Shown here in pieces: positions 45,406-62,596 of a DNA stretch of 64,000 bases. Position numbers and translations under genes: made by a program. The DNA comes from Cypionkella sp. GTDB taxonomy: Bacteria; Pseudomonadota; Alphaproteobacteria; Rhodobacterales; Rhodobacteraceae. The notes below the pieces were generated by a model. It saw only the letters and a list, made by a program, of their open reading frames with translations. It was not told the DNA's origin and did no database searches. The stretch lies in contig NZ_JAUSBA010000051.1 of NCBI RefSeq assembly GCF_030652235.1, positions 62,001 through 126,000 of the forward strand. The letters are read 5' to 3'. The first letter of the stretch is position 1; each line of letters begins with the position of its first letter.

Positions 45406-45480
45406 TGGGGCGTCGCCAAGCGGTAAGGCATCGGTTTTTGGTACCGACATACGGAGGTTCGATCCCTCCCGCCCCAGCCA
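45406..45480 (+). tRNA. tRNA-Gln (anticodon UUG), CCA encoded
   Basis: 75 bases fold as a cloverleaf: acceptor TGGGGCG pairs with CGCCCCA; the D-arm region is CGCCAAGCGGTAAGGC; the anticodon arm TCGGTTTTTGGTACCGA carries TTG; the T-arm is GGAGGTTCGATCCCTCC; discriminator G and encoded CCA follow. The 3' part is duplicated at 62577, marking it as the attachment site of the island. Confidence 0.95.
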
Positions 45481-45483
45481 ACT
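45464..45483 (+). repeat. attL core, 20 bp
   Basis: CCCTCCCGCCCCAGCCAACT, covering the 3' T-stem, acceptor, CCA and three bases beyond the tRNA. The copy at the other end is identical, and after one mismatch ATT also matches. Confidence 0.9.
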
Positions 45484-45531
45484 CATTATATTGTGTAAAA
45501 TCATACGCTTAGCGGACCGTCGGTCGGCGAA

Positions 45532-45558
45532 TGTGTTACAGTCTTGTGTGTGTAACAC
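45532..45558. promoter_or_regulatory. Left arm sites: TGTGTTACAGTC and inverted TGTAACAC
   Basis: TGTGTTACAGTC at 45532-45543 and its inverse TGTAACAC at 45551-45558. The same word occurs twice beside attR. Likely binding sites for the integrase N-terminal domain or an excisionase. Confidence 0.6.
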
Positions 45559-45589
45559 GCGGGCTTTTCGACTCCACCTCGGACGCATC

Positions 45590-45623
45590 AAAAAAGCCCG
45601 CCACGGCGCGAACCGGGCGGGCT
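45590..45623 (-). terminator. Terminator for leftmost island operon
   Basis: On the minus strand AGCCCGCC and GGCGGGCT pair around 13 bases, followed by six T. About 30 bases after the stop of the 83-residue gene. Confidence 0.85.
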
Positions 45624-45649
45624 ATGGTCGTGTGGTGTTGTGATCGAGG

Positions 45650-45901
45650 TTAGGCGGCCTCGCCATGCACGTTCACCGTCCGGCGGATCGCTTCATTCGC
45701 TGCGTCGATTGCTTGACGCATCTTTACCCGTGCAGCCTTCAAATCGCCCTTGATACGTTCAACTTCGACACGGGCTTGTTCTTCATTGTTAAGCGCAGCA
45801 AGTGCCTCACGGCGCTTCCGTTCACGATAACCGCTGATGAACGCCGTCATTGAGGGGCTGAGTGATGTTTCAGCATCTGCAACCTGTTCCATATCCATCA
45901 T
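45650..45901 (-). CDS. Island hypothetical protein, 83 residues, coiled coil
   Basis: Charged helical protein. The stretch from about residue 27 to 75 (RKRREALAALNNEEQARVEV and on) has a heptad-like pattern and probably forms a coiled coil. It has no family I recognise. Overlaps the preceding gene by 4 bp and is followed by a terminator; first genes of this kind in satellites are often regulatory or interference factors, but nothing here shows that. Confidence 0.6.
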   Translation of the reverse strand: MMDMEQVADAETSLSPSMTAFISGYRERKRREALAALNNEEQARVEVERIKGDLKAARVKMRQAIDAANEAIRRTVNVHGEAA

Positions 45902-46239
45902 GCTACCACCTGCGCGCCGCCACGGCGTTCGGCCATCAGATCGGCCACCGTGCGATAAATACCTTCACCCGGCTTCCAGAACGTCACCTGCAAAGCGGCA
46001 TAGCTGTGCGTCTCGTGCATGGCGACAATCGGGCCGATCAGCGACTCGGTGAAGAACTCGATAAGGTGGAAAGCACCAATTTCCGGCTCCACGCTGATCG
46101 TAGGGCGCTTCCACATACCGCCGTCTGCCATCGGGTTGCCATGCGCCTCGTGCAGGAAGCTGTTGAACTCCTTCTGGTTCATGCAGATGGTAATTGTGTT
46201 GGTTTCTTGTATCATTGGTCGCGCGTTCTCAGTGCCCAT
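45898..46239 (-). CDS. Island hypothetical protein, 113 residues
   Basis: Start set at MGTENARPMIQETNT, where AAGGAACCC precedes the ATG; the open frame goes 45 codons further up but has no such site. Mixed alpha-beta character with ITICMNQKEFNSFLHEAHG and VEPEIGAFHLIEFFTES. Unknown family. Overlaps the next gene (ATGA). Confidence 0.6.
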   Translation of the reverse strand: MGTENARPMIQETNTITICMNQKEFNSFLHEAHGNPMADGGMWKRPTISVEPEIGAFHLIEFFTESLIGPIVAMHETHSYAALQVTFWKPGEGIYRTVADLMAERRGGAQVVA

Positions 46240-46646: not shown

Positions 46647-46762
46647 GGAGTTTCTCACTCTAGTTTTATGGAGGGGATTTGCAGATGGGCGCGACTTGCG
46701 GCGCTGCGCCCATCTGCTTGGCACTGGAGAACCAGAGGTGCCTTAATTCCTCTGATAAAATT

Positions 46763-46969: not shown

Positions 46970-46999
46970 AATCTAGGTGATCGAGATTCTCAGTGCAAG
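46970..46999 (+). repeat. 30-bp imperfect direct repeat, copy B
   Basis: AATCTAGGTGATCGAGATTC followed by TCAGTGCAAG. It covers the stop codon and last codons of the rep gene. Starts 207 bp from copy A. Confidence 0.75.
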
Positions 47000-47862
47000 G
47001 CCGCTTTCGCAGTTTTCACCGACGAATTGCGGTTGGCCGGGGTAGCAGTCGTTATTTGAGCCTTGCGCCGTTCCTCGTAATCATCACGGGCCAGCCGGGT
47101 AAGGCTCTGCGAGGTGTAGGTCAGCCGATCGTCATAGAGTTCATTCAGGGTGTAGCGCTTATCCTTGGCGATGTAGCGGTGCCAGCGGTCGCCATCGGTC
47201 AGACGCACCAGCTTCACCTGTGTGCTGCCAGCGTGGCCTCTGACGTATCCAGCGCCCTGCCGCAGCGCCTTCTTCACCTTGGCTTCCTGATCAGGTGCAG
47301 CGAGAACAACGCCGTGCAGGTGCAGCCGCCCTTCTGGTGACACCTCAAGGTGCAGCGCCATCGGCAGACCGGACAGACCCTGTTCCTTCAAAGCCTCAGT
47401 AATGCGCCTAGACAGGTTCCGCATAGGGTTCTCTGAATGGAGTGAGCCGCTTTCCCGCCCGAACGAGAGGTTCAACGAAACCGCTTTGCCGCCCCGTGCC
47501 TGTGTGGTCTTGATGGCGGCGCGGAACTTTTCTTCTGGTGACAGCTTCAACCATGCCTTCGGCGTGGTGCTGACTGTTCCTGTGGGTGTGCTGCGTGCTG
47601 TGGGTGGTGATGTTACAGGGGGTGCCGTGGGGGTGGCTTGAGGTGTGGTGTGGGTGCCTAACTGGTCAAACACTTCGTTTTGGGTGCTAAGTGCATTGAT
47701 TTTGCTTACAGAAGTGACTGTTGCAGGGTGGACAAAATTTGCGGGCTGGATGGGGGTGCTTTGCAGGCGGGAAAGCGTGGCAAGAACGGCCTCAAAATCT
47801 TCGAGGCTCATGGTGACAGGCACGTTTATGCACTGTGCGGGTTGTGGTGACAGGTCAGGCAT
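46990..47862 (-). CDS. Probable HUH-type replication initiator
   Basis: About 290 residues. The first half is Pro/Thr-rich and likely unstructured. The second half has MALHLEVSPEGRLHLHGVVL, where HLH fits the HUH metal-binding motif (near residue 180), and WHRYIAKDKRY near residue 230, where YIAK fits the YxxK catalytic motif. This combination suggests a rolling-circle or phage-type nicking enzyme acting at the element's origin. The start was placed at MPDLSPQPAQ, because the open frame further up runs into the divergent promoter; MSLEDFEAVL is an alternative. I cannot assign a named Pfam family with confidence. Confidence 0.6.
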   Translation of the reverse strand: MPDLSPQPAQCINVPVTMSLEDFEAVLATLSRLQSTPIQPANFVHPATVTSVSKINALSTQNEVFDQLGTHTTPQATPTAPPVTSPPTARSTPTGTVSTTPKAWLKLSPEEKFRAAIKTTQARGGKAVSLNLSFGRESGSLHSENPMRNLSRRITEALKEQGLSGLPMALHLEVSPEGRLHLHGVVLAAPDQEAKVKKALRQGAGYVRGHAGSTQVKLVRLTDGDRWHRYIAKDKRYTLNELYDDRLTYTSQSLTRLARDDYEERRKAQITTATPANRNSSVKTAKAALH

Positions 47863-47988
47863 CGGTGATCTCGGCTTGCAGGCTTCGAGATGGAGATAAG
47901 CGATGGGCGTGGGCGTGCAAGGGGGGTATGGTAAAATTACAACACATTGCCCGGTTGGTGTATGCGAGGTCGTGCTTTGACACACCCC

Positions 47989-48018
47989 TTGACTCTGTAA
48001 TCTCACAGTGCCTACTGA
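47989..48018 (+). promoter_or_regulatory. Probable promoter of the AIPR gene
   Basis: TTGACT (47989-47994), 18-bp spacer, TACTGA (48013-48018), followed by GGTAAGG just upstream of the ATG at 48046. The divergent promoter for rep must be in the same 180-bp gap. Confidence 0.5.
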
Positions 48019-48045
48019 ATTTTTAAGTATACATGGTAAGGCAGA

Positions 48046-49719
48046 ATGAGAAACATAACTCAACTAGAATATTCTCTAATTCAAAGCAGAGTTGAACTTA
48101 CCAAAAAACGAAACGGCTTAGAAACGGACTCACGAGCATTTGCTCACGTCATTCTTGAGTCTATGACTGAACATGGCGATGGTGAAATATCACCACATAT
48201 TACCGATGGCGGCCATGATCGCGGCGCTGATGCAGTATACATTCAGGAGAAAGGCGGTGTGGCGACGATCTCGATCTTTCAGTTCAAATACGCCACAACT
48301 ATCAGCAGTGCGCAACGGAACTTTCCGGGCGCAGAGATAGACAAAATATGCAGCTTGATTTCTGACATTATGAATAGAGCGAGTGGCCTGATAGCAAGTG
48401 TAAACGGAATCTTAGCCCAAAAAATCAATGATATTTGGGGACTGGTTGACGCCGGAACTCATCTTAATTTTAAGATATTTTTATCATCAAACACCAACGG
48501 CCTTGCAGATCTTGAGAGAAAAAGATTGAGTGCCTATTGCGCAGATCACCGAATAGTGACATTTGAAGAAATATCGCACTCTGCGGTAATATCAATGATT
48601 TCGGCTGATGACAGGATAGCAGAAGCAGGAACGCTTGACTGTATTGACCTGCAAAAATATGAGAGATCAGACGGTGATATAAGGGGTGTAATCGCAAATA
48701 TAGATGCCGGATCTTTTGTCCGGTTAATCTGTCATGATGATTTGCAGACCATTAAGCGGCACATATTTTATGACAATATACGCGGATTCCTAGGAATTGA
48801 CGGCGGTTATAACAAGCAAATCGAAGCAAGCGCGCTTGCCGATGACAGCCACCTATTTTGGTATCTCAATAACGGCATTACTATTATAGCTAAGGACTTT
48901 TCACATCAGCCAATTCGGGGGTCCAAGATTCATTTGACTGACTTTCAGATTGTGAACGGCGCTCAGACCTCCTATTCACTATTTGAGGCATATAAGGTCG
49001 ACCCGGTAAAAGTCTCATCGTTGGTGCTTCTTGTCAAAATATTTGCTTCGAGCCGAACGGACGTTGCGAACAGTATTGCCATCGCAACAAATAGCCAAGC
49101 ACGCATCGGCCCTCGTGATCTGCGTGCAAATGATGCTATCCAGAAGAAAATCGAAGCTGTTTTTCTAAACAGTGGCATACTTTACGAGAGGAAGAAGAAT
49201 CAGTATTCGTCAAAATCCGATATGGCAGTATTCGATTCGCTAAAATTAGGTCAGGCAATACTTGCCTACCATATTCGTGAGCCGCACAGAGCAAGAACCA
49301 GTTCAGATGAAATCTTCTCATCACGCTACTACAACGAAATATTTTCAGACGCTCTCGATGCGAACTACCTTGTTCTGATCGCTAAATTGTTCATTGCAGT
49401 TAGTGCAAGTCGTGAGTTCACTATGGAAGCAATAAGAGCGCACGGAACAGTTACTCGTGTTGATGACTTTTCAGCATACAGCCAGTGGCATATGCTGTTC
49501 TGTATTTCGCTACTCGCCAGACGTGATCAAATGTTGATCCCGCCGGAGTCTGATTTTCCAAAATATATTGAGGAAGCAAACGCAATTGTCTCAAAGATCG
49601 CAATTAGTAATCAATCTTTTTCTTATTACAAGTTTTTTAGATCACCCAAAGCAAAGGAGTTAATCCAAGCCGAAATTGGCTCTGGGTCTGCGCAACTCGC
49701 GTTCGATATTTTTAGTTAA
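48046..49719 (+). CDS. AIPR-family phage-defence protein with nuclease-like N-terminus
   Basis: 557 residues. The AIPR domain is recognised by the chain RGFLGIDGGYN (about 246), FWYLNNGITIIAKD (about 270-283) and FQIVNGAQTSYSLFEA (about 300-315). The family was named for abortive phage infection. Residues 53-81 read like a PD-(D/E)xK core: GGHDRGADAV with D62, a hydrophobic strand, then QFK with K81. The gene is much richer in AT than its neighbours, runs against the structural operon and has its own promoter. Inferred role: blocking competing phages when the element is resident. Confidence 0.8.
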   Translation: MRNITQLEYSLIQSRVELTKKRNGLETDSRAFAHVILESMTEHGDGEISPHITDGGHDRGADAVYIQEKGGVATISIFQFKYATTISSAQRNFPGAEIDKICSLISDIMNRASGLIASVNGILAQKINDIWGLVDAGTHLNFKIFLSSNTNGLADLERKRLSAYCADHRIVTFEEISHSAVISMISADDRIAEAGTLDCIDLQKYERSDGDIRGVIANIDAGSFVRLICHDDLQTIKRHIFYDNIRGFLGIDGGYNKQIEASALADDSHLFWYLNNGITIIAKDFSHQPIRGSKIHLTDFQIVNGAQTSYSLFEAYKVDPVKVSSLVLLVKIFASSRTDVANSIAIATNSQARIGPRDLRANDAIQKKIEAVFLNSGILYERKKNQYSSKSDMAVFDSLKLGQAILAYHIREPHRARTSSDEIFSSRYYNEIFSDALDANYLVLIAKLFIAVSASREFTMEAIRAHGTVTRVDDFSAYSQWHMLFCISLLARRDQMLIPPESDFPKYIEEANAIVSKIAISNQSFSYYKFFRSPKAKELIQAEIGSGSAQLAFDIFS

Positions 49720-52124: not shown

Positions 52125-53732
52125 CTAGAATGTGAACAGGTCCGCATCGGCGGCGTTGTAAGCTGATTGGTTGGTTTCGGCTGCGCAGGCGCGCGACACG
52201 GCCATAGCGGCGGCGATTGCGCCGTCTATGCGGTCGGTTTTCTTGCCTTTGTGCATCCTGATCAGGCCAGTGTCGTTGCGGCTGGCAACCACGCTGGCGA
52301 AGTGATGGCGAAGCACCGGGTGGCCGTCATGCCTGATAAGATGCCCGTTCACGGTGCGCGCAAGGTCGCCAGCCGCTACACCCATCGTCAGAGGTGCTTG
52401 GCGCATTTCCACCGTAGGGATGCCGTCATCATAGAGGTGCTGCATGGTGACGCGCGCGAGGTGCGGGTCAAAGGCCACCTCTTGCACGTCAAACCGCCCG
52501 CAAAGTTCACGCACACAATCTTCAACCGCGGCGGGTGCAATAATCGGGCCGGGAACCGCGGTGATCAGACCTTCATCACGCCACCGTTCGTATGGCACCC
52601 CGTCGCGGTCGCCACGCTCTTTCAGGTCATCACCGGGAACAAAGAACCACGGCTTGACCGTGATCTGCCCGTCATCATGCAGGAAGGCTGCCACCACCGC
52701 CGTAAGGTCGCCACTGATAGACATATCAACGCCAATCCAGCACGGCAGCGCCTCAAGGTCGGTCAGGTCGTCGGCAAAGCAGCGGGCGTCGTAGGTGTCG
52801 AGGTCAAACAACGGGCTGCGGCTGTGTGCCATCCACAGATTGAGGTTGAACTGTTGGAAGGCGTAGCGGTCAGATGGTCGGCCTTCGGCCTCTTTGGCCG
52901 CTGCGCGCAGCCCGCTTAGGCTCGGAAAGCCGTGGATAAGGCCGGGGTTCACCCGCTGCCATACCGCTTCATCCTGCCAATCGTCATCGGGTCCGGCCTC
53001 AAAAATGATCGGCAGATATTCCGGGTTGTCGATTTCGCCCAAAGCCACCCGGCGCGCGTAGCTGTATTGCTCTGCCCCTAGGTTTTCAGAACCCCGGCCT
53101 GCGGTCGTGGCGATGACGGTCAGACTTTGATCCACCTTCACCATGCCGGATTTCAGGGCTTCCCAGAGGTCGCGGCCTTTCCAGACGTGGATTTCGTCAA
53201 TCAGGGTGAAGGATGGGGTCTTACCATGCTGCGCGCCGCCGTCGCTGGAAACGGCGATCAGGGTCACGTCCTGCGCTTTCAGCACGATTTTCTTGGCGCT
53301 GTTGTGGGCGTCATAGATGCGCGTTGCTGCCACCAGCCGCTTGTCGGCCCGAACGATATTGGCGGCTTCACGAAAGCCGATGCCTGCTTGTTCGCGGTCA
53401 CTGGCGGCAAAGATCACTTGTCCGGCTGGCACCTTTTCCGGGCCGATGGTGTGCAACAACGCCAGCGCGGCGGCGAGGCTGGTCTTGCGGTTGCCGCGCG
53501 GGATCATCAAGAACACGTTGCGCACGATACGGCTGCCATCGGGATGGCGCGGGCCGTAGATGCGCCGCACGATACGTTCTTGCCACGGGAAAAGCTGGAA
53601 AGCGCGCTTCGGCAAGGTGCTGTTTGGGTGCTTCAACAGGCGCAAGAAACGCACGGCACGTTCACCGAAGCCGAACGGGTCCGGGATCGGGCTGTTGTCG
53701 TAAATCCATGCCGGGTAGGTGCTTGCGGTCAT
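52125..53732 (-). CDS. Terminase large subunit, HK97 type
   Basis: Motor and nuclease for DNA packaging, about 535 residues. ATPase: Walker A MIPRGNRKTS (78-85 core), Walker B FTLIDE (175-180), coupling motif IATTAGRG. Nuclease: first acidic residue in CWIGVDMS and the last in KTDRIDGAIAAAMA. The start was put at MTASTYPAW, one base after the small-subunit stop; the longer frame starts inside that gene. Confidence 0.95.
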   Translation of the reverse strand: MTASTYPAWIYDNSPIPDPFGFGERAVRFLRLLKHPNSTLPKRAFQLFPWQERIVRRIYGPRHPDGSRIVRNVFLMIPRGNRKTSLAAALALLHTIGPEKVPAGQVIFAASDREQAGIGFREAANIVRADKRLVAATRIYDAHNSAKKIVLKAQDVTLIAVSSDGGAQHGKTPSFTLIDEIHVWKGRDLWEALKSGMVKVDQSLTVIATTAGRGSENLGAEQYSYARRVALGEIDNPEYLPIIFEAGPDDDWQDEAVWQRVNPGLIHGFPSLSGLRAAAKEAEGRPSDRYAFQQFNLNLWMAHSRSPLFDLDTYDARCFADDLTDLEALPCWIGVDMSISGDLTAVVAAFLHDDGQITVKPWFFVPGDDLKERGDRDGVPYERWRDEGLITAVPGPIIAPAAVEDCVRELCGRFDVQEVAFDPHLARVTMQHLYDDGIPTVEMRQAPLTMGVAAGDLARTVNGHLIRHDGHPVLRHHFASVVASRNDTGLIRMHKGKKTDRIDGAIAAAMAVSRACAAETNQSAYNAADADLFTF

Positions 53733-53733
53733 G

Positions 53734-54126
53734 CTACACCGCCAGCGGGTTGTCTGCGTCGTCATCATCGGCGACGTTGTTGCCGATGCGGGCGCGGCTT
53801 GTGGGTGTCAAACCATACTCGGCTGCCAACTGGCGGGCGGTCTGCGCTGCGCGATTGAGAACGCCAAACAGTTTTGCGTCGATTATGCCGCCAGCGGTTT
53901 GGCGGTCTGTCTCGATCTGCCGGATGATGCCAATACAGGTGACGTAATTTTCCACCCCCGCCAGATCGGCGCGGGTGATGATCTGCCGCGCGATCAGTTG
54001 CGGCATAATACGCTTCCACTCTGCTTTCGCCTGCACCGACAGCCATGACGGCACGGGTGGCGCTTTCGACAGGGCGTCATCATCCGGGGAAAGAGTGGGC
54101 TTGATACCTCTGGAATGAACGCTCAT
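53734..54126 (-). CDS. Terminase small subunit, P27 family
   Basis: About 130 residues; recognises the packaging site. The P27-like central part WKRIMPQLIARQIITRADLA, then YVTCIGIIRQIETDR, is clear, as is the AEYGLTPTSRARI end. Next to the large subunit, as expected. The start at MSVHSRGIKPTL is favoured over an upstream ATG five codons away. Confidence 0.88.
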   Translation of the reverse strand: MSVHSRGIKPTLSPDDDALSKAPPVPSWLSVQAKAEWKRIMPQLIARQIITRADLAGVENYVTCIGIIRQIETDRQTAGGIIDAKLFGVLNRAAQTARQLAAEYGLTPTSRARIGNNVADDDDADNPLAV

Positions 54127-54191
54127 GCTGCACCTTGACACTTAGTGTCCGCAGCATTGCCTCCACCAGATAAGTGAACCAGTGAGCCTAG

Positions 54192-54584
54192 ATGAAAGAC
54201 TTCATACTTTTTGCGTCGATTTTGACCGCCGGGATTTTGGGTTTCATTGTCAAGCAAAACGCCGATGATCTGACAAGTCTTAAAGCTAGTCTCAGCAGCG
54301 CCGAAACGCAGTTGGCGGCGGCAAGTGCCGACAAAGTCACTGCCGGAGAACGAACCGCATATGGCTCGATCTGCGTTGATTGGATAAAAGATGTCGAGGA
54401 AAAGAAGGGAACCAAAGGTGAATACTCTTTGGGACGCTCTTGGAAAAAACACGGACAATTTGTGTTTGAGGTTATGACCCCGGCAGAGGGCGGAAACATG
54501 GTGGTTTGCACCTATGACGAGCAATCCGGTGTGGTGGTTCGACCAGCAGACAGTGAACGAAGCATATGGATGTTCTATGAATAG
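54192..54584 (+). CDS. Membrane-anchored hypothetical protein, reversed within the structural operon
   Basis: 130 residues with an N-terminal hydrophobic segment (DFILFASILTAGILGFIV) followed by a short helical stretch and a soluble domain with two Cys (SICVDW and VVCTYD). It is the only gene on the plus strand in a 12-kb run of minus-strand genes and is squeezed between two of them with gaps of 2 and 65 bases. This looks like a moron: an added gene with its own control. No family recognised. Confidence 0.65.
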   Translation: MKDFILFASILTAGILGFIVKQNADDLTSLKASLSSAETQLAAASADKVTAGERTAYGSICVDWIKDVEEKKGTKGEYSLGRSWKKHGQFVFEVMTPAEGGNMVVCTYDEQSGVVVRPADSERSIWMFYE

Positions 54585-54586
54585 GC

Positions 54587-54907
54587 TCATGGCTGCACCC
54601 CTACGGCGCGCAGCTTCCAGCCGTCGCGCCGCCCGATCTCTGTGATGGCTTTCAGGTCATAGCTGCGGCCTTCAAACAGGATACGGTCGCCTGTGGTGAT
54701 CGGTGTAGGGTGCCAGCGCACGATAAACACCAGAGTCTCGGCCTCGGCTTGACCGAAGCCTGTGGCGATTTCATCCGCGTTCTGTTCACGCACCTCGGCT
54801 CGAACGGTCAGCAAATTCGTCCAGGTGATTGCCGGGACTCTGCCGGGTAGCCCGGTTTCGACTGCGCGTTGAACGGTGATAATTCTGTCTAGTTTACCTG
54901 CTTCCAT
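54587..54907 (-). CDS. Head closure / head-tail adaptor protein
   Basis: About 106 residues of the SPP1 gp16-like family: MEAGKLDRIITVQRAVETG at the start, then WTNLLTVRAEVREQNADE and DRILFEGRSYDLKAITEIGR. Seals the portal after packaging. The start at MEAGKLDR is supported by the family N-terminus; an ATG five codons upstream is less typical. Confidence 0.85.
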   Translation of the reverse strand: MEAGKLDRIITVQRAVETGLPGRVPAITWTNLLTVRAEVREQNADEIATGFGQAEAETLVFIVRWHPTPITTGDRILFEGRSYDLKAITEIGRRDGWKLRAVGVQP

Positions 54908-54909
54908 GA

Positions 54910-55329
54910 TCAGAACCCCCACCGGATGACCGCTTCCAGCGTCATCACGCCATGCACATACGAAAGGTCAGGTTGGGGGTCGCGCAGCCATATCGTGCGG
55001 GGCTTGGCGTAGTCGTCAACGGCAAAGCCAGCACCAGCAGGGGCGTCGATCAGGGCTTGCAGCACCGCCATACCGATGGCTTTGGCCGTCTCGGCACCGT
55101 CTTCAATCGCCCAGATATGCAGATCGAGGAACACCCGCGCGACGTGCTGCGATACGGGCGCGCGGCCAAGATATTCGGTCTGCGCACCCGCAAGGATGAT
55201 GCACGGCGTCTTGTCGGGCCGGGTCGAACCTGCGCGAACATGCGCCACTGGCACCAGCGCAAGCACCTCTGGCGATGCCACCAGCGCGGCTGCAACAGCG
55301 TCTTGGAAGGCTACTGTGGGCTCAAGCAT
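54910..55329 (-). CDS. DUF3168 tail completion protein
   Basis: 139 residues with MLEPTVAFQDAVAAALVASP at the start and HVRAGSTRPDKTPCIILAG and FLDLHIWAIEDGAETAKAIG, typical of DUF3168 (tail-terminator-like proteins of siphophages and gene transfer agents). Overlaps the preceding gene by 8 bp. Confidence 0.85.
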   Translation of the reverse strand: MLEPTVAFQDAVAAALVASPEVLALVPVAHVRAGSTRPDKTPCIILAGAQTEYLGRAPVSQHVARVFLDLHIWAIEDGAETAKAIGMAVLQALIDAPAGAGFAVDDYAKPRTIWLRDPQPDLSYVHGVMTLEAVIRWGF

Positions 55330-55771
55330 CGGATGCACTCCCGTTTTTGGCCGCTGCGCGTATGGCAGCACCCACGGCGCGGCCGATGCGCGCTTTGAAC
55401 TTGGCGCGGGTCAGACGTTCGGCCGGGCGCATAAACGGCTGTGCCTCGTGGTTTACGGTGCCAAATTCTTGCAGATGGCCGTGGCGCATATCGGGGTTGC
55501 CCACGGTAACAAGGGCTTGGTTTTCGGCAGCGGTGCGCTTGCCACCACCAGCGGCATATGGCGGCGTGGTGCCACCGGGCGGCGTGACTGCAATCGAGGC
55601 GATCAAGTCGCCTTCGTCTTGCGGTGCCAGCGCGCGCATGGTCGCGGCAAGATCTTCCGCACCCTGCACAAGCGCGGGCCGAACGTGCGCCACGATCTCA
55701 GCCGGGATAGCTTCAAGTCGTTTCGCAAGAGCGCGTGATTGTGCTGCAAGGTCAAATGATTGCGAAGCCAT
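55322..55771 (-). CDS. HK97 gp10-like morphogenesis protein
   Basis: 149 residues: MASQSFDLAAQSRALAKRLE, then the LAPQDEGDLIASIAV block and HGHLQEFGTVNHEAQPFMRP, which is the conserved core of HK97 gp10 proteins (GT-x-x-x-x-A-x-PF). The start lies one base after the stop of the connector gene; the longer open frame only overlaps that gene. Confidence 0.88.
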   Translation of the reverse strand: MASQSFDLAAQSRALAKRLEAIPAEIVAHVRPALVQGAEDLAATMRALAPQDEGDLIASIAVTPPGGTTPPYAAGGGKRTAAENQALVTVGNPDMRHGHLQEFGTVNHEAQPFMRPAERLTRAKFKARIGRAVGAAIRAAAKNGSASDA

Positions 55772-55772
55772 C

Positions 55773-56060
55773 TTACACCACCCACTGACGGTAGGCTTGC
55801 AAAAGATCATGCACGCCGAAGGGGATTGCGTAAGCATTGCCGCCCACGGTCGCGGCTTCCCTGATTTCATACCAGTATGCCGCCATCATCAGCACGGCTT
55901 GCGTGATTGCAGCGGGTGCCGGGTCGTAAATCCAGCCGCCGATGTAGCTCGCGCAATAACCTTCGGCGGCTTCCAGCTTGTGCTGTAACAACACATCATC
56001 GAGGTCATGTTCGATATTCAACTGCGATTTCAGCAGGCTAAGAGGTGTAAGTGATGTCAT
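55773..56060 (-). CDS. Head-tail connector (gp6-like)
   Basis: 95 residues, with LSLLKSQLNIEHDLDDVLLQ and LEAAEGYCASYIGG then QAVLMMAAYWYEIREA, the family layout of HK97 gp6. Forms a ring beneath the portal. First gene of the head-completion group after a 73-base gap. Confidence 0.85.
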   Translation of the reverse strand: MTSLTPLSLLKSQLNIEHDLDDVLLQHKLEAAEGYCASYIGGWIYDPAPAAITQAVLMMAAYWYEIREAATVGGNAYAIPFGVHDLLQAYRQWVV

Positions 56061-56133: not shown

Positions 56134-56532
56134 TCATAGGGTGGAAGTCGTTACCCACCCCCGCTGCACTGGTGCGTCTGCCGTCTGCCGTGCGTCTTGT
56201 GTGAGGGCGCGCTCTGGCGTCCAGCCGCGTGCAAGACGTTGCAGGATAAGCACGCGGGATATTCCCGTGCGGTTCGACCAGTCAGCAGCGTTCAGGGTTT
56301 CGCCGTTGTGGGTGATCAGCTTTGGCGCGGATGACGTGCTGTCAGTCACAACCTGCTTCGGCCGGGTGATGGCTTCGGCCTCTGACCACCCCAAGGCGAG
56401 GCGGCTGTAAATCTTGAACGCCGGGACGCCAGAGCGTTTTGACCATTGCGTGATGGTCAGGGTTTCGCCGTTGTGGGTGATGGCGTCGGTGTTGATGGTG
56501 CGCTTGACGGGTGGCTTGATGGAGCGCTTCAT
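56134..56532 (-). CDS. Protein with two tandem NUMOD-like DNA-binding repeats
   Basis: 132 residues. Two copies of a 39-residue unit: ITHNGETLTITQWSKRSGVP continuing to LALGWSEAEAIT, and ITHNGETLNAADWSNRTGIS continuing to LARGWTPERALT. The unit resembles the NUMOD1-like helix-turn-helix found beside phage HNH nucleases. Its start overlaps the HNH stop (ATGA). It may guide or support the HNH protein at the packaging site. Confidence 0.65.
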   Translation of the reverse strand: MKRSIKPPVKRTINTDAITHNGETLTITQWSKRSGVPAFKIYSRLALGWSEAEAITRPKQVVTDSTSSAPKLITHNGETLNAADWSNRTGISRVLILQRLARGWTPERALTQDARQTADAPVQRGWVTTSTL

Positions 56533-56879
56533 GCTCTGCGCTCCTGACGTTGCTTGTCGCTGTTGTGGCAGCGCTGGCAAAGCGATTGCCAATTTCTAAA
56601 ATCCCAGAACAAGCTTTGGTCGCCACCATGCGGCTTGATGTGATCCACCACGGTTGCCGCCTTGCCGCACATCACGCACCATGAATGATGGAACAGCCAC
56701 TCTAGGCGGGCCTGTTCCCACTTGCGGCTGTAGCCACGCTGGCGGGCTGTGGGGCGCTTGGCGTCAAACCGGGCGTTGCGGGCGCGGGTGCTGGCGATCT
56801 GACACGCGCAGCGGGTGCCGTGCGCGACGGTGCGGCCACAGTTGCAGAGGTGTGGGGGTCGTGGCATGGCGGTCCTCAT
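56529..56879 (-). CDS. HNH endonuclease of packaging module
   Basis: 116 residues. The zinc-binding and HNH motif is CVMCGKAATVVDHIKP, then LFWDFRNWQSLCQRCHNSDK, with paired Cys before and after. HNH proteins of this type cooperate with the HK97-type terminase. The first ATG overlaps the upstream stop (ATGA); a second ATG four codons on (MPRPPHLCNCG) has GAGGA at better spacing and may be the real start. Confidence 0.88.
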   Translation of the reverse strand: MRTAMPRPPHLCNCGRTVAHGTRCACQIASTRARNARFDAKRPTARQRGYSRKWEQARLEWLFHHSWCVMCGKAATVVDHIKPHGGDQSLFWDFRNWQSLCQRCHNSDKQRQERRA

Positions 56880-57487: not shown

Positions 57488-59002
57488 TTATACGGCCATT
57501 TTCAGCTTGCGGAAAACGGCTGCGCTGGTGACGCCAGCTCCCACCCGGCGGCGGGCGTGAAAGCGGGCCATACCCACCGTGCGCTGCGTCAGCAGATCGG
57601 GCAGCACGTCCAGCGCGATACGGTCATAGATGCGATACCCGGCTTTGAAGTCGCCAAAGATGATCGGCGTGGTGGCGTTCGCGACGTTCGGCATATCCAG
57701 CGCTTCGACAACCGGACGGCCAAGGATCGTTTCCGGCTGGCCTGCCTGATAGGACGGCTGCCACAGATATTGCCCGGTCGTGTCTTTCAGGGTGCGCAGC
57801 ACGGCAAGCGTGGTGCCGTTCATCACCCAAGTGCCACGGTTGCGATAGGTCGCGGGCATTGAGTAAAACAGCTTGATCAGCGCATCTGCCGACAGGTTGG
57901 TCGCGTGGCCGTTGTTCGTTTCGGCAATGCCTGCGGCGGTCATAAAGCCCGTGGGTTCAACAGCGGTCGCACCGTTCACGAACGACACGGCCTCTTTCAT
58001 GCCGAAGTCTTCGGCCAAGGCCAAACGCACTTCGGCTTCCACGTTCGCAGAGTCCTCAAGCATCCGCAGCGATAGGTCCACAAAGGTCGCAAGTTCCTTC
58101 ACCGCGATCTCGCCTTGATCGAACGAAGGCTGAGACGCGGTGCGCTCCACCACTTCACCCACCCAAAGAGCGTTGGTGACGCCCGTGCGCTTCGGCAACA
58201 GGACGTTGTGGCTGGCGGTCGTGCGCACGTCTGCGATGGCGCGGATCGGGCTGAACTCGATCAGGTTGCGGATGAACTCGCCAGAGACTTCCTCTGGTGC
58301 CAAAACGTAGGCCGGGGCGTCATTGGCGACGGTCAGGGCTTTCTTGTCGAACTCGCCACCTTGCAGGAACGACACGAACGCCTTGCGCTCTGGTGCGATC
58401 ACCGCGCCGGAAACATGCGCGCCGTGGGGGCGGTTGCTTTTGGCCTCAAGTTGATCGAGGCGCGCTTTCATCGCGTCGAAAGCCTTGGTGTCGATTTGCG
58501 GTGCGTTGGCCGGGGTTTGGGTTTCGTCGGTCATGGTGTTTTCCTCTGGGGTGTTTTCCGCATTTGCGGCTTTGATGGACGTGATCACCGCGCCGGGATG
58601 GCTCGGGATAGCGACTATGCTGATCTCGAAAAGATCGAGGGCGGCGATGGTGCGACCACGCGGGCGCGGCGTGGCTGATTTCGTGACAAAGCCGATTGAG
58701 AGCCCGGAGACAGCGCCCGCTTGGATCATGGCGCGAACCTCCGCAGCGCGGGCCACGTCATCCACCAGCAAGCGGCCTTTCACAGTCAGACCTTCGGCGG
58801 TTTCAGTGATTTCGTTCCAGACGCCGATCACCTGTGCCTGATCATGGGCGAACAGCATGGGCAGCGAGGCCGGGGCGGTGAAAGCGCCTTTGGTGATCAC
58901 GTCGCCCACACGGTCAGGTCCAGAGAACGGCCACGCGGTGCCAGTGATCTCGCCTGCGTCGTCAACCGCGAAGGCGGCTTTGAACTCGATACGGTCGGTC
59001 AT
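57488..59002 (-). CDS. Prohead protease-major capsid fusion, HK97 type
   Basis: 504 residues in one frame. The protease part (1 to about 145) has H53 in LFAHD and S102 in SGLSIGF, with the IEISIVAIP-like LFEISIVAIPSHPGA end. From about 157 the capsid part begins MTDETQTPANAP, with a scaffold/delta-like segment (DAMKARLDQLEAK) and the HK97 fold (TGVTNALWVGEVVERT, FVNGATAVEPTGF, WVMNGTTLAVLRTLKD). An internal start with its own ribosome-binding site lies exactly at this joint. Confidence 0.92.
   Translation of the reverse strand: MTDRIEFKAAFAVDDAGEITGTAWPFSGPDRVGDVITKGAFTAPASLPMLFAHDQAQVIGVWNEITETAEGLTVKGRLLVDDVARAAEVRAMIQAGAVSGLSIGFVTKSATPRPRGRTIAALDLFEISIVAIPSHPGAVITSIKAANAENTPEENTMTDETQTPANAPQIDTKAFDAMKARLDQLEAKSNRPHGAHVSGAVIAPERKAFVSFLQGGEFDKKALTVANDAPAYVLAPEEVSGEFIRNLIEFSPIRAIADVRTTASHNVLLPKRTGVTNALWVGEVVERTASQPSFDQGEIAVKELATFVDLSLRMLEDSANVEAEVRLALAEDFGMKEAVSFVNGATAVEPTGFMTAAGIAETNNGHATNLSADALIKLFYSMPATYRNRGTWVMNGTTLAVLRTLKDTTGQYLWQPSYQAGQPETILGRPVVEALDMPNVANATTPIIFGDFKAGYRIYDRIALDVLPDLLTQRTVGMARFHARRRVGAGVTSAAVFRKLKMAV
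58532..58547 (-). promoter_or_regulatory. Internal ribosome-binding site and ATG inside the protease-capsid fusion
   Basis: On the minus strand AGAGGA is followed by AAACACC and ATG (codon 157). This could produce free capsid protein of about 348 residues besides the fusion. Confidence 0.6.
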
Positions 59003-59376
59003 GCTGGCACCTGCAAGGCTGCGGCAAGATCACCAGTGGCGGCGGCTTCGGCAAGCTGCGCGTCATCGGCAACGCCAGACCACCGCGCATCAAGAATGTT
59101 CAACGCCAGCGCCATCAGCTCGCCCAGCGGGCGGTTTGTGGCATAGGCTTGCACCTTGCGGAGAGAATACTCAGGACTTGCTCCCCCGCCGATCATCCCA
59201 AGCCGGATGATCTCGCGCAGGGAGTCTGCGGCGAACTGTCCGGCGATGAAGGTGGCGTAGATCGCACCGATGCCTTGGCCCGTGATATGCTCAAGTTCGG
59301 TCAGCATTTCGTCGGTCAGGCAAAAGGTATAATCGGTCGTTCCGAAAAACCCCCGGTGTGAGATTTTATCAGGCAT
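58999..59376 (-). CDS. Gene-transfer-agent-like tail assembly chaperone (Phage_TAC_11)
   Basis: 125 residues. FCLTDEMLTELEHITGQGIG then SLREIIRLGMIGGGASPEYS and the LGELMALALNILDARWSGV end match what I recall for the GTA family chaperone. The start at MPDKISHRGFFG follows AAGGA; it overlaps the portal by 8 bp and the protease by 4 bp. A tail chaperone between portal and protease is unusual. Confidence 0.65.
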   Translation of the reverse strand: MPDKISHRGFFGTTDYTFCLTDEMLTELEHITGQGIGAIYATFIAGQFAADSLREIIRLGMIGGGASPEYSLRKVQAYATNRPLGELMALALNILDARWSGVADDAQLAEAAATGDLAAALQVPA

Positions 59377-60574
59377 CTTGAGATTCCTTTTTAGCGGCGT
59401 CATTCGCGCCCGTGGTGGTATAGGGGTTTTGAAGGGTGTTGCCTTCGGCGTGGGCTGGCAGGTTCAAGCCGCCGCGAACCTCATTGGCCGTCATTGCACC
59501 CATAGATCGGAATTGACCGTATGCCGTGGCACGTTCGGCAAGTTTTACCGTGGACAGGTCTTCGGTGATAAACTCGACATAATAAGCGCGCCGTTCCTCT
59601 GGTGTCAGCAACACGCGCGCATAAGCCGCCTGCCACTTATTAAGCCACGGTCGCAGCGTGGTCTGAATAAACTGCCGCTGCATTTCTTCGGCATTTGACC
59701 ATGTGCTGCGCGACAGCTCAAAAAGCATCGTTGGCGGCACTCTAAAAATACGCGCGACTTCGTGGATTTGCTCAAGGCGGTTTTCACTGAATTGCGCATC
59801 GGTCAGCGTCATTGTGATTTGCTGATAGGCCATGCCTTCGTCAAGCAAAGCCACGCCGCCAGATTTCGGGCCGGAGTGGGTGTCGGTCCAAGCCTTTTTC
59901 AGCTTCACCTTGGCTTCATCGCCAACCGTTTTCGGCGCGGTGATGATGCCGCCGGGGCTGGCACCGTTCGCCAGCAGCTTGGCGAGGTGGCCGGAAAGCG
60001 CTGCCGCCGTGGCGAGGGCTTCACGGCCAAGGCTGATCGGTGATGCGTCAAAAAACGGCTGGATATGCAGGATTTCGGTATAGGCATAACGCACTGTGCC
60101 GCGCGCCGTCTGCAACAGGTAATAGGGCTCACCGTCATCATCATGCTTGAACTGGACGGCGGCGGGATCGAGGCGGTGCAATTCAAGCGGTGTGCCGTCT
60201 GCGGCGCGGACAACCACGGCATAGCCTGCGCCATGCAGTAGGGCGTCTGCGGTCAGGGTCGTGCGCAGCGCCTCTGCGCTTGTCCACGGGTTCGCCTCGT
60301 CATGGATCAGGTGATAGGCCGGATGATCCTTGGCAGTCGCTTTGGTTTCGCGCTCAAAGAGTTTTACAGGAAGGGTGCCAGCGGTTTCAGAAATTAACGC
60401 GACAGCGCAAGCGACAGCGGGAATACGCATTGCGCCCGCTGCACTAAAAGACAGACCACCGATATTTGAGATACCGCCAAAAACGGAAAAGGCTTCATCG
60501 TCTGAAAGCGAAAAAGATTTGACCTCTGGCTTAAAGCCAAGTGCCGATTTTACGGTGTCGAGTAATCCAGTCAT
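59369..60574 (-). CDS. HK97 family portal protein
   Basis: 401 residues. ETAGTLPVKLFERET, AYHLIHDEANPWTSAEALR, the ILHIQPFFDASPISLGREAL block and RIFRVPPTMLFELSRSTWSN are typical of HK97-type portals. First gene of the head module, 72 bases after the integrase stop. Ends in a mobile tail (GANDAAKKESQDA). Confidence 0.95.
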   Translation of the reverse strand: MTGLLDTVKSALGFKPEVKSFSLSDDEAFSVFGGISNIGGLSFSAAGAMRIPAVACAVALISETAGTLPVKLFERETKATAKDHPAYHLIHDEANPWTSAEALRTTLTADALLHGAGYAVVVRAADGTPLELHRLDPAAVQFKHDDDGEPYYLLQTARGTVRYAYTEILHIQPFFDASPISLGREALATAAALSGHLAKLLANGASPGGIITAPKTVGDEAKVKLKKAWTDTHSGPKSGGVALLDEGMAYQQITMTLTDAQFSENRLEQIHEVARIFRVPPTMLFELSRSTWSNAEEMQRQFIQTTLRPWLNKWQAAYARVLLTPEERRAYYVEFITEDLSTVKLAERATAYGQFRSMGAMTANEVRGGLNLPAHAEGNTLQNPYTTTGANDAAKKESQDA

Positions 60575-60646
60575 CGGCGTTTATCCTGTGAAGCATCTTC
60601 ATAGGATCAATGTAGAGTCAGCCGAATCAGTTGTAAGGGGTTTGCG

Positions 60647-62449
60647 TTATTTTATTTTGTCAAGCACTAAATGGTCGAGACTTAGGCCGGGATATTGAAT
60701 CGCATTCACCAGTTCCACGCGCTGTTCAAGCATCCCTTGAGGCATAATACCGTATCGGCCAGTCATAGATTTTTCAGTGTGTCCTAAAATAAATCCGAAC
60801 TGCTGATCGAGGAAACCGCCACGCCGCAAAGCATCTGCCGCACCATGCCGAAAAGAATAAAGCGAAAGTCCCCTACCCACCTTGAGACCGATCCTTGTCA
60901 AATATCGCCCAAACTCACGCGACACATCAGCCATCATCTGACCACGCTTATTCCGCACCGCGCCGGGGAACAGCGCCGTGCCACCCTCTTTCACGCGGCC
61001 TTCGTGGTAGCCGATAAAGCCAAGCCTGATCAGTTCGGGGTGAACCGGAACAACACGCATTGACCCTTCGGTTTTCACCGACTTGCCTTCGTCGGTTTCG
61101 TCGCCTTCGGTGGTGACGTGCATGATCCAGTGGCCGTGCTGTTGCCGAACGTCATTGACGGCAAGCTGACCGATCTCTGCGGGCCGCGCGCCAGAGAACA
61201 GCATGATCAGCGGCACCCAGAACCGATGATCACGGATCAGGAAGTTACCGGGTTTTGCGATCTTGCGCCATTCATCATCACTCTGGCACCCCACAAACCA
61301 CGGCGAGGCGAACAGCGCTTTAAGCTGATCGGTGTCAAACGGCAGCGTGGGGGTTTTTGTCTCTTTCTTGAGTGCCAGCCCCAACGTGGCGTTTTCGTTC
61401 ACATAGCCGTTGTCCACAGCCCACGACAGAAACGCGCCAAGGCTAGACAGATAGCGGTTCACGGTGCGGTCAGCGATCACCGGCTTGCCGATCTTCTCGT
61501 TCGCCTTGACGATCTGTGAGATATTCATGCCAGCGAACACGTTGGTTTCGGTCGCCTTGACCGGGTATTTCACAAGCAACTGCTTCCAGTTTCGCACTTC
61601 GACTTTGCTGATCGAGGCGATGGGAAAGCTGGCACCCACCAGTTCAACGAATGTCCCGATGTCCCGGCGCATCTGGTGAAGGCGATCCTGCGCAACACCG
61701 CTGGGGTTTTCTCTGGCGAAAATGTCGAAAAGTTCCATAATCGTCTCACCGGGCTTCGCAGAGGCGCGGCGCTGCCCGCTGGCGGGCCGCACAAGCTGAT
61801 CACGGGGTTCGCCGGAGTAGTCGCCAGCATCGCGCTCTAGGGTGCGCTGTAGCCCCTCTATGCCGCCGCGCATCATGGCGCGGGCGATGCCCACCCATTC
61901 AGGCGAACCGGGCGCTGCATAGAGGCGGTTGGCGCGCAGGAACTCGTTCACGTCATCCGCGATGGGTGTCATCTCGCCTTTGATCAGGTTCGCGCGCGTG
62001 TCGGCCAGCTTCGCCTTGCGCATGGCGCTGTTGAACTCTGCCGCGTTTTGTTTGGCCTGAAAGCCCACGGTCGCCGCCAGCATCGCCAGACGGTCGGTCA
62101 GGTCCAGACCCTCGGCCTGCGCGGTCGCTACCGCCTCGGCCTTGGCCTCTTGCACGTCGCCTTCGGTTGGCAGGTTCACGCGGGCGGCTTCGTCGTCAGC
62201 AAGGGTTTGGCCGTAGTGCGACCACGCCGCCAACGCCTCGTCGTCCTTGGTCAGGTTCTTGCGGGCGCGCAGGTCGTCAAATTCGAGGTGCCAAGCCTGC
62301 ATCTGCGGATGCAGCCGCCGTTTGGCTTCTGGCAACTCGTTGGTGCCTAGCGCCTTCACCAGCTCTGTTTTGCCGATCACTTCCACCAGATCGACAGGAA
62401 CGCGGATGCGGGCCGAATAGCTTGCACCGCGTCTCAGAAGGTTGCTCAT
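60647..62449 (-). CDS. int: Tyrosine recombinase (integrase)
   Basis: 600 residues. N-terminal DUF6538-like opening (MSNLLRRGASYSARIRVPVD), long helical linker, core-binding domain (about 235-350), and catalytic domain with the first Arg in SGARPAEIGQLAV (about 420), His-x-x-Arg in YSFRHGAADALRRGG (about 530), the later His in LGHTEKSMTGRYG, and the Tyr at its end (about 563). Longer than typical phage integrases because of the N-terminal part. Transcribed from near attR inward. Confidence 0.93.
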   Translation of the reverse strand: MSNLLRRGASYSARIRVPVDLVEVIGKTELVKALGTNELPEAKRRLHPQMQAWHLEFDDLRARKNLTKDDEALAAWSHYGQTLADDEAARVNLPTEGDVQEAKAEAVATAQAEGLDLTDRLAMLAATVGFQAKQNAAEFNSAMRKAKLADTRANLIKGEMTPIADDVNEFLRANRLYAAPGSPEWVGIARAMMRGGIEGLQRTLERDAGDYSGEPRDQLVRPASGQRRASAKPGETIMELFDIFARENPSGVAQDRLHQMRRDIGTFVELVGASFPIASISKVEVRNWKQLLVKYPVKATETNVFAGMNISQIVKANEKIGKPVIADRTVNRYLSSLGAFLSWAVDNGYVNENATLGLALKKETKTPTLPFDTDQLKALFASPWFVGCQSDDEWRKIAKPGNFLIRDHRFWVPLIMLFSGARPAEIGQLAVNDVRQQHGHWIMHVTTEGDETDEGKSVKTEGSMRVVPVHPELIRLGFIGYHEGRVKEGGTALFPGAVRNKRGQMMADVSREFGRYLTRIGLKVGRGLSLYSFRHGAADALRRGGFLDQQFGFILGHTEKSMTGRYGIMPQGMLEQRVELVNAIQYPGLSLDHLVLDKIK

Positions 62450-62481
62450 TTTGGCCTATCCTGTCACATGTGGAACGGTCG

Positions 62482-62505
62482 TGTGTTACAGTCATGTGTT
62501 ACAGT
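62482..62505. promoter_or_regulatory. Right arm sites: two TGTGTTACAGT repeats
   Basis: TGTGTTACAGTC at 62482-62493 and TGTGTTACAGT at 62495-62505, in the same orientation and 13 bases apart. The same word and its inverse lie beside attL. They sit about 30-55 bases upstream of int, so they may also control int. Confidence 0.6.
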
Positions 62506-62576
62506 TTTTTTCAGGATAGTCAATAAATGTCATATAGTTACATGAAAACATGGGCTTAAAAAATGTTGTAATAATG

Positions 62577-62596
62577 CCCTCCCGCCCCAGCCAACT
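62577..62596 (+). repeat. attR core, 20 bp
   Basis: CCCTCCCGCCCCAGCCAACT, identical to the 3' end of tRNA-Gln plus three bases. Here there is no tRNA body upstream, so this is the duplicate copy and the left one is the functional gene. Confidence 0.9.

Follow-up and report, generated by a model that had tools for sequence, protein, structure and literature searches.

What kind of element carries a full set of head and packaging genes and a tail length tape measure protein (TMP), with no tail tube found, is the question posed by a 17-kb mobile island at a tRNA-Gln gene in the genome of a Cypionkella sp. (Rhodobacteraceae). The answer to which we give a probability of about 0.72 is that it is a capsid-forming satellite whose own TMP and chaperones are combined with the tube and tip of a helper. 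This reading is based on gene content and the gaps in it, conservation, purifying selection, the distribution of the family and the presence at one tRNA site of different islands or of none; from these we infer the island's induction, excision, replication and packaging, its helper and its chimeric tail. The window, i.e., the whole 64,000-nt stretch of DNA that was analyzed, holds the island between direct repeats with a span of 17,113 bp (Table 1, with gene identities from Pfam and PHROGs profile matches).

Table 1. The island and its integration site, in window coordinates
Feature	Position	Strand	Evidence or remark
tRNA-Gln(ttg), integration target	45406..45480	+	
attL core, 24 nt	45464..45487	.	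23/24 nt identical to attR; 20 nt exact
83-aa protein	45650..45901	-	no convincing family match
Protein of up to 158 aa	45898..46374	-	relatives in L107 and the island of G777
Protein of up to 117 aa	46371..46724	-	family in 12/30 clustered elements
Rep, probable HUH-type replication initiator	46990..48063	-	weak PF23343 (0.019) and alignment
AIPR/AbiU-family abortive-infection protein, 557 aa	48046..49719	+	PF10592 1e-37; PADLOC AbiU 7e-65
TMP, 785 aa	49756..52113	-	phrog_10574 4e-127
Terminase large subunit (TerL)	52125..53768	-	PF03354 + PF20441
Terminase small subunit (TerS)	53734..54141	-	PF05119 8e-19
130-aa protein, opposite strand	54192..54584	+	relative at same position in G026a (39%)
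Head closure (head completion)	54587..54922	-	PF05521
Tail terminator / DUF3168	54910..55371	-	PF11367
HK97-gp10-like neck protein	55322..55870	-	PF04883, phrog_5
Head-tail connector	55773..56060	-	PF05135, phrog_40
Repeat protein adjoining HNH gene	56134..56592	-	phrog_3377/1065
HNH endonuclease, probably of packaging module	56529..56879	-	PF01844
Tail assembly chaperone-like protein, 202 aa	56876..57484	-	TAC_6 PF09550 1.5e-5 at residues 122-153; phrog_7493
Fused prohead protease - HK97 major capsid protein	57488..59002	-	PF04586 + PF05065
GTA-gp10-like tail assembly chaperone (TAC_11), 134 aa	58999..59403	-	PF11836 5e-21, phrog_8985
Portal	59369..60574	-	PF04860 2e-91
Tyrosine integrase	60647..62449	-	DUF6538 + PF00589
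attR core	62577..62600	.	

An earlier note on this DNA had listed a full head and packaging set with an integrase and a replication initiator, and the profiles recovered all of these, the initiator as a probable one; the core genes look intact, with lengths that agree with those of relatives. The island thus has its own major capsid protein, protease, portal, connectors and closure, and its own TerS, TerL and HNH endonuclease, as do the capsid-forming satellites termed cf-PICIs, which are described as making their own heads and using helper tails (PMC10690885, PMC11389934, PMC13230959); the use of helper tails is presumed for the island. In having an integrase and a tRNA site it is consistent with a chromosomal island: the att repeat lies at the tRNA, and in the genus this one tRNA-Gln is occupied by three diverged islands (those of the window, G781 and G777) and is island-free in one further genome. 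In the Rep alignment H-x-H was read in five of six relatives and W..Y in all, making an HUH-type initiator probable. To judge from its profile matches the AIPR/AbiU gene is defence cargo in a variable slot, without a match in the islands of G781 and G777; such cargo differs between islands, some of which bear anti-phage genes. NCBIfam added nothing for ten island proteins beyond weak matches to the TMP and the AIPR protein.

The note had also held that tail tube, tip and lysis genes are missing, and the searches bear this out, no tube, tip, fibre or lysis gene having been found. Profiles were run for lysozyme and, on the tail side, for distal tail, hubs, NlpC, g15/J and major tail proteins of two types; across all stop-to-stop ORFs of at least 30 aa, independently of the gene caller and under HMMER default filters, none matched at E ≤ 10 in the islands of the window, G777 and G781. 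In positive controls, which are partly circular, each tail profile matched 25–36 records and lysozyme 6; a first g12 profile drifted (141 matches) and was rebuilt for the final searches. The C63-type hub profile is a single sequence without a control, and the hub profiles are of GTA/siphophage type, so that a remote hub could be missed. Pfam searches of 129 non-core ORFs from 23 related elements matched 37 families, and none of the 25 listed relates to lysis. This set, drawn from 192 listed ORFs after removal of 43 from the window or six tube-bearing or cut elements, 19 below 60 aa and a 498-aa ORF of G031 across a segment joint, is incomplete, since the rough gene caller misses or shortens ORFs (of the window's AIPR gene only 62 aa remained). 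Three of the 129 encode gpM-like minor tail proteins, and phrog_32 ('tail assembly protein') is matched by two non-core ORFs of related elements, neither among the ten ORFs of the gpM check. As head, motor and tail-length parts are encoded and tube, tip and lysis genes were not found, the island very likely depends on the tails of another phage.

The 785-residue tape measure and two tail-chaperone-like proteins noticed earlier were recovered by profiles, although the TMP falls 1.2 bits below the cut-off of PF10145. The dN/dS ratios are 0.145 for the TMP (against L004, 782 codons), 0.128 for TAC_11 and 0.065 for TerL, values by which all three genes are under purifying selection. The name 'tail tube protein' is given to the 134-aa protein by both PHROGs (phrog_8985) and the Pfam text. 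It was nonetheless rejected as a tube and read as a chaperone, because its AF2 model is mostly helical (mean pLDDT 74.8) and matches no solved structure at E ≤ 0.001, and because related full siphophages encode a separate major tail protein. The 202-aa protein was likewise rejected, its model being mostly helical (pLDDT 73.3) and without a fold match; confidence in both models, which were built from 6 sequences, is moderate. The family u152, a third candidate, was set aside because its matches are to HNH-associated repeat families and some elements lack it.

Among known systems, the possession of its own TMP and its own tail assembly chaperone (TAC) aligns the island with PLE-type satellites that form chimeric tails. 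PLE11 of Vibrio cholerae supplies TMP, TAC and hub and was shown in 2026 to produce chimeric tails, which its TMP enters and which are about 10 nm shorter; without tmp, some 99.9% of transduction is lost (all PMC12987554). This is the direct proof from which, by analogy, the island may be thought to set the length of a borrowed tail. Unlike the island, which builds its own head, PLE uses helper capsid proteins (PMC12987554) and has a contractile helper and a baseplate hub of its own, BhuB; the hub profiles had no match in the window island. The departures from cf-PICIs lie elsewhere: AlpA and Pri-Rep, their signature genes according to PMC10448857, were not found, AlpA among 20 island ORFs or the Pfam families listed for related elements (a diverged small regulator could escape), and Pri-Rep by any primase match in the island, where the HUH-type Rep is present instead. 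The island family further conserves the two chaperones and the TMP. Extended Data Fig. 10b of PMC12987554, however, shows putative tmp genes in sampled cf-PICIs, so that a tmp gene is not unique to the island.

Further parallels are partial. The E. coli satellites targeted by odn-like nucleases also have capsid genes, a putative tape measure and few other tail genes, but, as far as PMC10448857 describes them, a baseplate component is present in them and terminases, protease and adaptors are not, whereas in the island the packaging set is complete and no gene for a baseplate was detected. MulchRoom and MiniFlayer, from Streptomyces hosts, encode their own capsid and packaging; the tail of MulchRoom equals that of its helper in length and MiniFlayer carries a tail fibre (PMC10690885). 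For the integrating Streptomyces satellite, unlike the island, the relevant passages of PMC10690885 report no tail-component homologues. A literature search for satellites in Rhodobacteraceae found none.

The earlier note proposed looking for the same genes and gaps at tRNA-Gln in other Rhodobacteraceae, and such islands lie in G781 (Cypionkella sp. RYN_515), G777 and G026a, with further relatives at tRNA-Thr and tRNA-Val; tube and lysis profiles, matches to which would have made this an ordinary or decayed phage, found nothing in the three congeneric islands. The order int-portal-TAC11-procapsid-TAC6-HNH-connector-neck-terminator-closure-TerS-TerL-TMP recurs in L004/G781, G382, G026a, G329, G025 and G031, the last with inserted genes and a split TerL, while G252 keeps it from portal to TMP and has a different integrase at the far end. 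A class-wide TMP search at E ≤ 1e-40 returned the source genome alone (1/385). The first relatives were found by TMP search, so their retention of the TMP holds by construction. A scan based on the portal instead covered the best 80 of 184 relatives, with portals of this clade only and some contigs shared with the TMP-based scan; it reaches 10 kb beyond the portal, so that the stretch after the TMP is mostly unseen. In the 50 loci readable past TerL, all 11 core genes were present in every one, the two chaperones always and the TMP in 49.

In a TerL tree the window falls inside a 41-row clade without a detected tube (SH-aLRT 100), surrounded by tube-bearing relatives; the tree holds 89 of 125 rows, with only every third viral row kept from L187 onward, and was made by a quick method with long branches among the full phages. 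L185, L163, L164, L252 and L253 have no tube match, yet lie outside this clade. L121, G329 and again L185, all with no tube detected, keep a gpM-like gene. As distant TerL relatives keep the tube and these three the gpM-like protein, tail genes seem to have been lost in a series of steps across the wider group, and the original proposal of a tail-borrowing capsid-forming satellite, which gene set and gaps support, is qualified to that extent. L205 has a lysozyme-like ORF close to TerS and no TerL profile match in the examined stretch.

A tailed prophage had been sought in the same genome, and one is present (C63, G000:C63, about 1.8–20 kb), though nothing marks it as the helper. It shares with the island the order portal-TAC-procapsid-HNH-connector-neck-terminator-closure-TerS-TerL-TMP and has, unlike the island, a major tail protein (phrog_158, 4e-4), a tail-fibre-type protein (phrog_11439, 1.8e-77) and a phage lysozyme; its integrase is its own and its TAC is of another family. 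The position of the major tail protein in C63 and its kin is occupied in the island by the repeat protein. At E ≤ 1e-4 a phrog_158-type tube was detected in 25 of 394 family genomes, the match in C63 being too weak for its genome to count, and in one of seven other island hosts of the family sample (G026), which speaks against a consistent resident helper of this type. The best named phage matches of the island TMP are RcapNL (29% over 84%) and phi2LM21 (55% over 24%), and in RHph_X2_26 and phi2LM21 a TAC_11 or TAC_6 profile match adjoins the TMP; all three phages have, unlike the island, a full RcGTA-type tail (TP901-type tube, distal tail, hub, NlpC, g15/J). A resident helper of the RcapNL type was rejected, as at E ≤ 0.001 the TP901-type tube occurs once per genome, inside the gene transfer agent (GTA) cluster, in 11/11 genomes (8 carry these islands and 3 the sister group), and outside it in none.

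That last pattern invites the thought that the island is a satellite of the host's own GTA, placing its heads, packaging and tape measure on the resident tube and tip; the helper would then be a domesticated host system and not a phage. The GTA is always resident and offers the sole TP901-type tube in the genomes searched, the chaperone domains PF11836 and PF09550 belong to GTA-named families, and in a fold-based tree an E. coli cf-PICI capsid groups with that of the R. capsulatus GTA (PMC12846349). We hold this to be very improbable, as the nearest tube-bearing relatives have a phrog_158-type tube and the island chaperones barely resemble those of the GTA (no usable blastp match to g10, a weak one to g10.1). 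Nor is the island itself a GTA: it has an integrase, g9 and g12–g15 gave no match in it, and the host's GTA-type cluster lies at G000:C76. Decay of a siphoprophage, with tube, tip and lysis genes already gone and the rest to follow, would explain the fuller, tube-bearing relatives of the same gene order (C63, G046, G047, G250) and the internally deleted ones: L181 (TAC11, capsid and TAC_6 matches absent between portal and HNH), L232 (no matches between capsid and TerS) and L244 (no TMP, short TerL frame). It would leave unexplained why the gap is common to a diverged 41-row TerL clade, why the genes are intact and under purifying selection, and why one tRNA-Gln holds three diverged islands and is empty in one genome, with spans between tRNA repeats of 16.8–20.2 kb in four genomes; its probability appears minimal.

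An autonomous small phage, with tube, tip and lysis proteins too diverged for recognition, finds room in five small genes (83–158 aa) without clear function, but this too seems quite unlikely. Clustering of 30 elements gave no non-core family present in all, though the caller misses some ORFs; the commonest, u152 (20/30), has the HNH-associated matches mentioned above; and apart from Rep and AIPR no gene without an assigned role reaches 160 aa in the listed parts. Moreover, the tube of L122, L126, L134, L183 and L184 sits exactly between capsid and TAC_6, where the gap between stop-to-stop frames has a median of 4 nt in the family (75 loci; 164–859 nt in 6). The remaining alternatives concern the role of the TMP and chaperones in a capsid-forming satellite. 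That the satellite uses complete helper tails and that these proteins disturb helper tail assembly, in a Tai/Tab/Rta-like role, is unlikely: satellites and prophages do carry tail-assembly inhibitors (PMC11364771, PMC10884400, PMC12987554), but as far as these sources describe them they are not a TMP-TAC set, PLE employs TMP and TAC structurally, and assembly calls for what the island has, a TMP of full length, a terminator and a pair of chaperones. That TMP and chaperones are non-functional leftovers of a phage ancestor in an otherwise ordinary satellite of this kind would agree with the single gpM-like tail genes of some relatives; it is made very unlikely by the TMP in 49 of 50 loci found without it and by its low dN/dS over 782 codons.

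Under the favored reading of a satellite on borrowed tails, the island would integrate at tRNA-Gln, excise, replicate probably by its HUH-type Rep, and build HK97-type heads that it fills via its own TerS, TerL, HNH and neck proteins. A helper would supply the tube, tip and lysis functions; the chaperone pair and the 785-aa TMP would recruit the helper's tube subunits into a chimeric tail of satellite-set length, from which the satellite TMP would be ejected together with the DNA. A likelier reading than GTA parasitism is that of a long-established Rhodobacteraceae lineage in which the tube was lost a single time and which, from then on, has been an obligate tail pirate dictating its own tail length. 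The family, with its TMP retained in nearly all readable loci, and its surviving tube-bearing or fuller relatives may be seen as a natural series for asking which parts of a tail are indispensable to a satellite, and in this non-pathogenic bacterium a single-gene deletion could put to the test whether a satellite sets the length of a borrowed tail.

The island is no lone relic and belongs to a family, with matches to its 785-aa tape measure protein (TMP) in 22 of 394 genomes of the bacterial family at E ≤ 1e-10, its own included. A direct repeat bounds it at the 3' end of the tRNA. Starting from its integrase end and reading the minus strand, the island has integrase, portal, a GTA-gp10-like chaperone (TAC11), a protease-capsid fusion, a 202-aa TAC_6 protein, HNH, an HNH-associated repeat protein, connector, HK97-gp10 neck protein, tail terminator and head closure, then a 130-aa ORF (plus strand), TerS, TerL and TMP, beyond which lie an AIPR/AbiU gene (plus strand), Rep and three small unknowns. 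Among the regions fetched, the integrase-to-TMP order is common to G382, G026a, G329, G025, G031 and L004; G031 has extra genes inserted and TerL split, its order otherwise being that of the window. G252 has the same order from portal to TMP, with a different integrase at the far end, and in G091 contig ends carry only the TMP and the genes that follow it. The G031 TerL frame is broken by ~1.1 kb with a 336-aa reverse-strand ORF; TerL is also split in L240, whose TerL tree row is identical to that of G031; the cause may be an intron or an insertion.

Coordinates of the features discussed (window-based unless another sequence is named)
Feature	Sequence	Position	Remark
tRNA-Gln(ttg)	window	45406-45480	
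Direct repeat, first copy	window	45464-45487	20 nt exact, 23/24 overall
Direct repeat, second copy	window	62577-62600	span 17,113 bp
Capsid	window	57488-59002	
Capsid	L004	3295-4824	60% identical to window
GTA-gp10-like chaperone	window	58999-59403	"tail tube" in databases
AbiU/AIPR gene	window	kilobase 48001-49000	lowest-G+C kilobase of window (0.426)
Right flank with homologue in G779	window	63543-63687	87.6%
GTA-type cluster (L089-L091)	G000:C76	26.4-40 kb	own genome
Prophage (L086)	G000:C63	~1.8-20 kb	own genome
Broken TerL frame (G031)	L078	13239-16028	
Stretch with lysozyme-like ORF	L205	16330-18382	

The earlier note had proposed looking for the same gene set at tRNA-Gln in other Rhodobacteraceae, and it is there in G781, G777 and G026a. 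G781, G777 and G779 share the window's genus, and in G781 and G777 the island occupies the same tRNA-Gln. In G781 (Cypionkella sp. RYN_515, the genome of L004) the proteins from integrase to TMP are 82–97% identical to those of the window, with only the repeat protein and the capsid, the latter at 59%, outside this range; the G777 island is far more diverged (33–78% protein identity). Spans between tRNA repeats are 18,049 bp in G026a (Gln), 16,786 bp in G025 (Thr) and 20,168 bp in G031 (Val). At the tRNA-Gln site G247 and G775 have zero island matches, and G779 has zero island-protein matches within ~4 kb after the tRNA; there the homologue of the window's right flank lies 1.2 kb past the tRNA, in a stretch assembled twice in identical copies, and elsewhere the genome gave only a short partial TMP match.

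That tail tube and lysis genes are missing, as the earlier note had read from the sequence, is borne out by profiles of the distal tail, NlpC, g15/J, phage lysozyme, two kinds of hub and two major tail proteins unrelated to each other (one of TP901/RcGTA g9 type, one of phrog_158 type). With default filters no profile reached even E ≤ 10 on any stop-to-stop ORF of ≥30 aa in the three islands (window, G777 and G781). Control records were matched by the TP901 tube (25), phrog_158 tube (31), g12 (36), g13 (30), g14 (29), g15 (30) and lysozyme (6) profiles, controls that are partly circular and leave the C63 hub profile without one. A Pfam search of 129 non-core ORFs, drawn from 23 related elements, matched 37 families, of which the 25 listed include no lysis family, and three ORFs (in L121, G329 and L185) match a minor tail protein family. 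The database label "tail tube" for the GTA-gp10-like protein was set aside: its model is mostly helical, and in the related phages RcapNL, phi2LM21 and RHph_X2_26 the major tail protein is a different gene, placed upstream of that for the TMP. The 202-aa protein is likewise mostly helical by prediction, and neither chaperone model has a counterpart among solved structures at E ≤ 0.001. Their families, PF11836 and PF09550, are those of RcGTA g10 and g10.1, respectively.

Since the first relatives had been found via the TMP, viral contigs were rescanned with the portal, yielding 184 relatives, of which 80 were kept as loci ending 10 kb past the portal, so that the stretch beyond the TMP falls mostly outside them. 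Of the fifty that reach at least 400 nt past TerL, none lacks any of the 11 core genes, and 49 carry the TMP, the sole exception being L244, where the TerL frame is short. Tube and tip profiles matched none of the 80 at E ≤ 0.001; lysozyme matched in L205. In the L205 stretch examined, the lysozyme-like ORF comes soon past TerS and a TerL profile match is absent; the packaging module there may be rearranged. All 12 genes occur together on 51 contigs, whose ends are not necessarily element ends; their median length is 16,832 bases, and 48 fall in the range 11.5–20.4 kb.

Some relatives have a tube. A phrog_158-type major tail protein lies between capsid and TAC_6 in L122 (PHROG, 8e-21), L126, L134, L183 and L184 (by our own profile, L134 and L184 also by blastp). 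Over 75 portal-scan loci the stop-to-stop frames of capsid and TAC_6 lie a median of 4 nt apart; in six the gap is 164–859 nt, and four of these match the cement-like C63_127. In a second tube-bearing set (G046, G047, G250 and C63) the tube lies between HNH and connector. Both TMP and tail tube are retained in the sister group G046/G047/G250, where G250 has a distal tail protein as well and no large tip protein was called past the TMP; the group's spans (L068-L069, L070-L071 and L072-L073, respectively) measure 17.1–17.7 kb at tRNA-Trp, -Arg and -Leu. Might these be satellites one reduction step behind? In a TerL tree using 89 of 125 rows, the window falls in a 41-row clade (SH-aLRT 100) with 38 rows lacking a tube match and three unclassed (L135 and L139, on cut contigs, and L181), surrounded by tube-bearing groups. 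The simplest reading of the tree would be one old tube loss in this clade; over the whole tree the no-tube label needs at least 7 changes.

Nei-Gojobori dN/dS between the window and L004, by our own script, is 0.057 for portal, 0.065 for TerL, 0.094 for the terminator, 0.128 for TAC11, 0.145 for TMP (782 codons), 0.32 for TAC_6 and 0.378 for capsid. Portal and TerL are ~96% identical between these islands, and the capsid, only 60% identical, may well have been exchanged. Four of ten ORFs searched with PADLOC had strong matches: AbiU/AIPR in the window (7e-65), a type IV restriction-like protein in G025, and both another such protein and PDC-S33 in L145. ORFs of relatives gave single Pfam matches each to an NgoMIV-type restriction enzyme and a cytosine methylase. 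The low G+C of the AbiU/AIPR gene's kilobase suggests recent acquisition; satellites with immune-gene hot spots are described in passages of PMC11364771. Among six aligned relatives of Rep, five have an H-x-H motif and all six a W..Y pattern, which we take as marks of HUH initiators, and on these motifs Rep reads as one.

As to a helper, a tailed prophage in the same genome, which the earlier note had advised seeking, was found on contig C63, with a tube, a tail-fibre-type protein and a lysozyme; it is possibly a helper or sibling of the island. This small, complete-looking siphoprophage has the island's head/packaging order and an integrase beside tRNA-Cys, and its contig begins inside or near it. 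In each of 11 genomes a single TP901-type tube was detected, always in a GTA cluster, and the own genome's only one found is in its complete-looking, RcGTA-type cluster on C76. Phrog_158-type tubes are present in 25 of 394 family genomes (E ≤ 1e-4), among them one of the seven other island hosts in the sample. A missing resident helper is not decisive, because for the cf-PICI EcCIEDL933, according to passages of PMC11389934, 17 resident prophages gave no detectable mobilisation.

In the literature searched, neither this Rhodobacteraceae island family nor a cf-PICI with a chaperone pair and TMP was met, absences of little weight with the founding cf-PICI papers outside the search. Parts of PMC12987554 report that the Vibrio cholerae satellite PLE11 encodes TMP, TAC and hub, that the TMP in its particles is the satellite's own, with that of the helper kept out, that tails are shortened by ~10 nm and that transduction falls by ~99.9% once tmp is deleted; the legend of its Extended Data Fig. 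10 gives putative tmp genes in a sampling of cf-PICIs. E. coli satellites with capsid genes, a putative tape measure and few other tail genes appear in portions of PMC10448857. AlpA and Pri-Rep were not found in the island, which is therefore not classed as a plain cf-PICI. Its overall working would be that of a cf-PICI, and its tail genes liken it to PLE.
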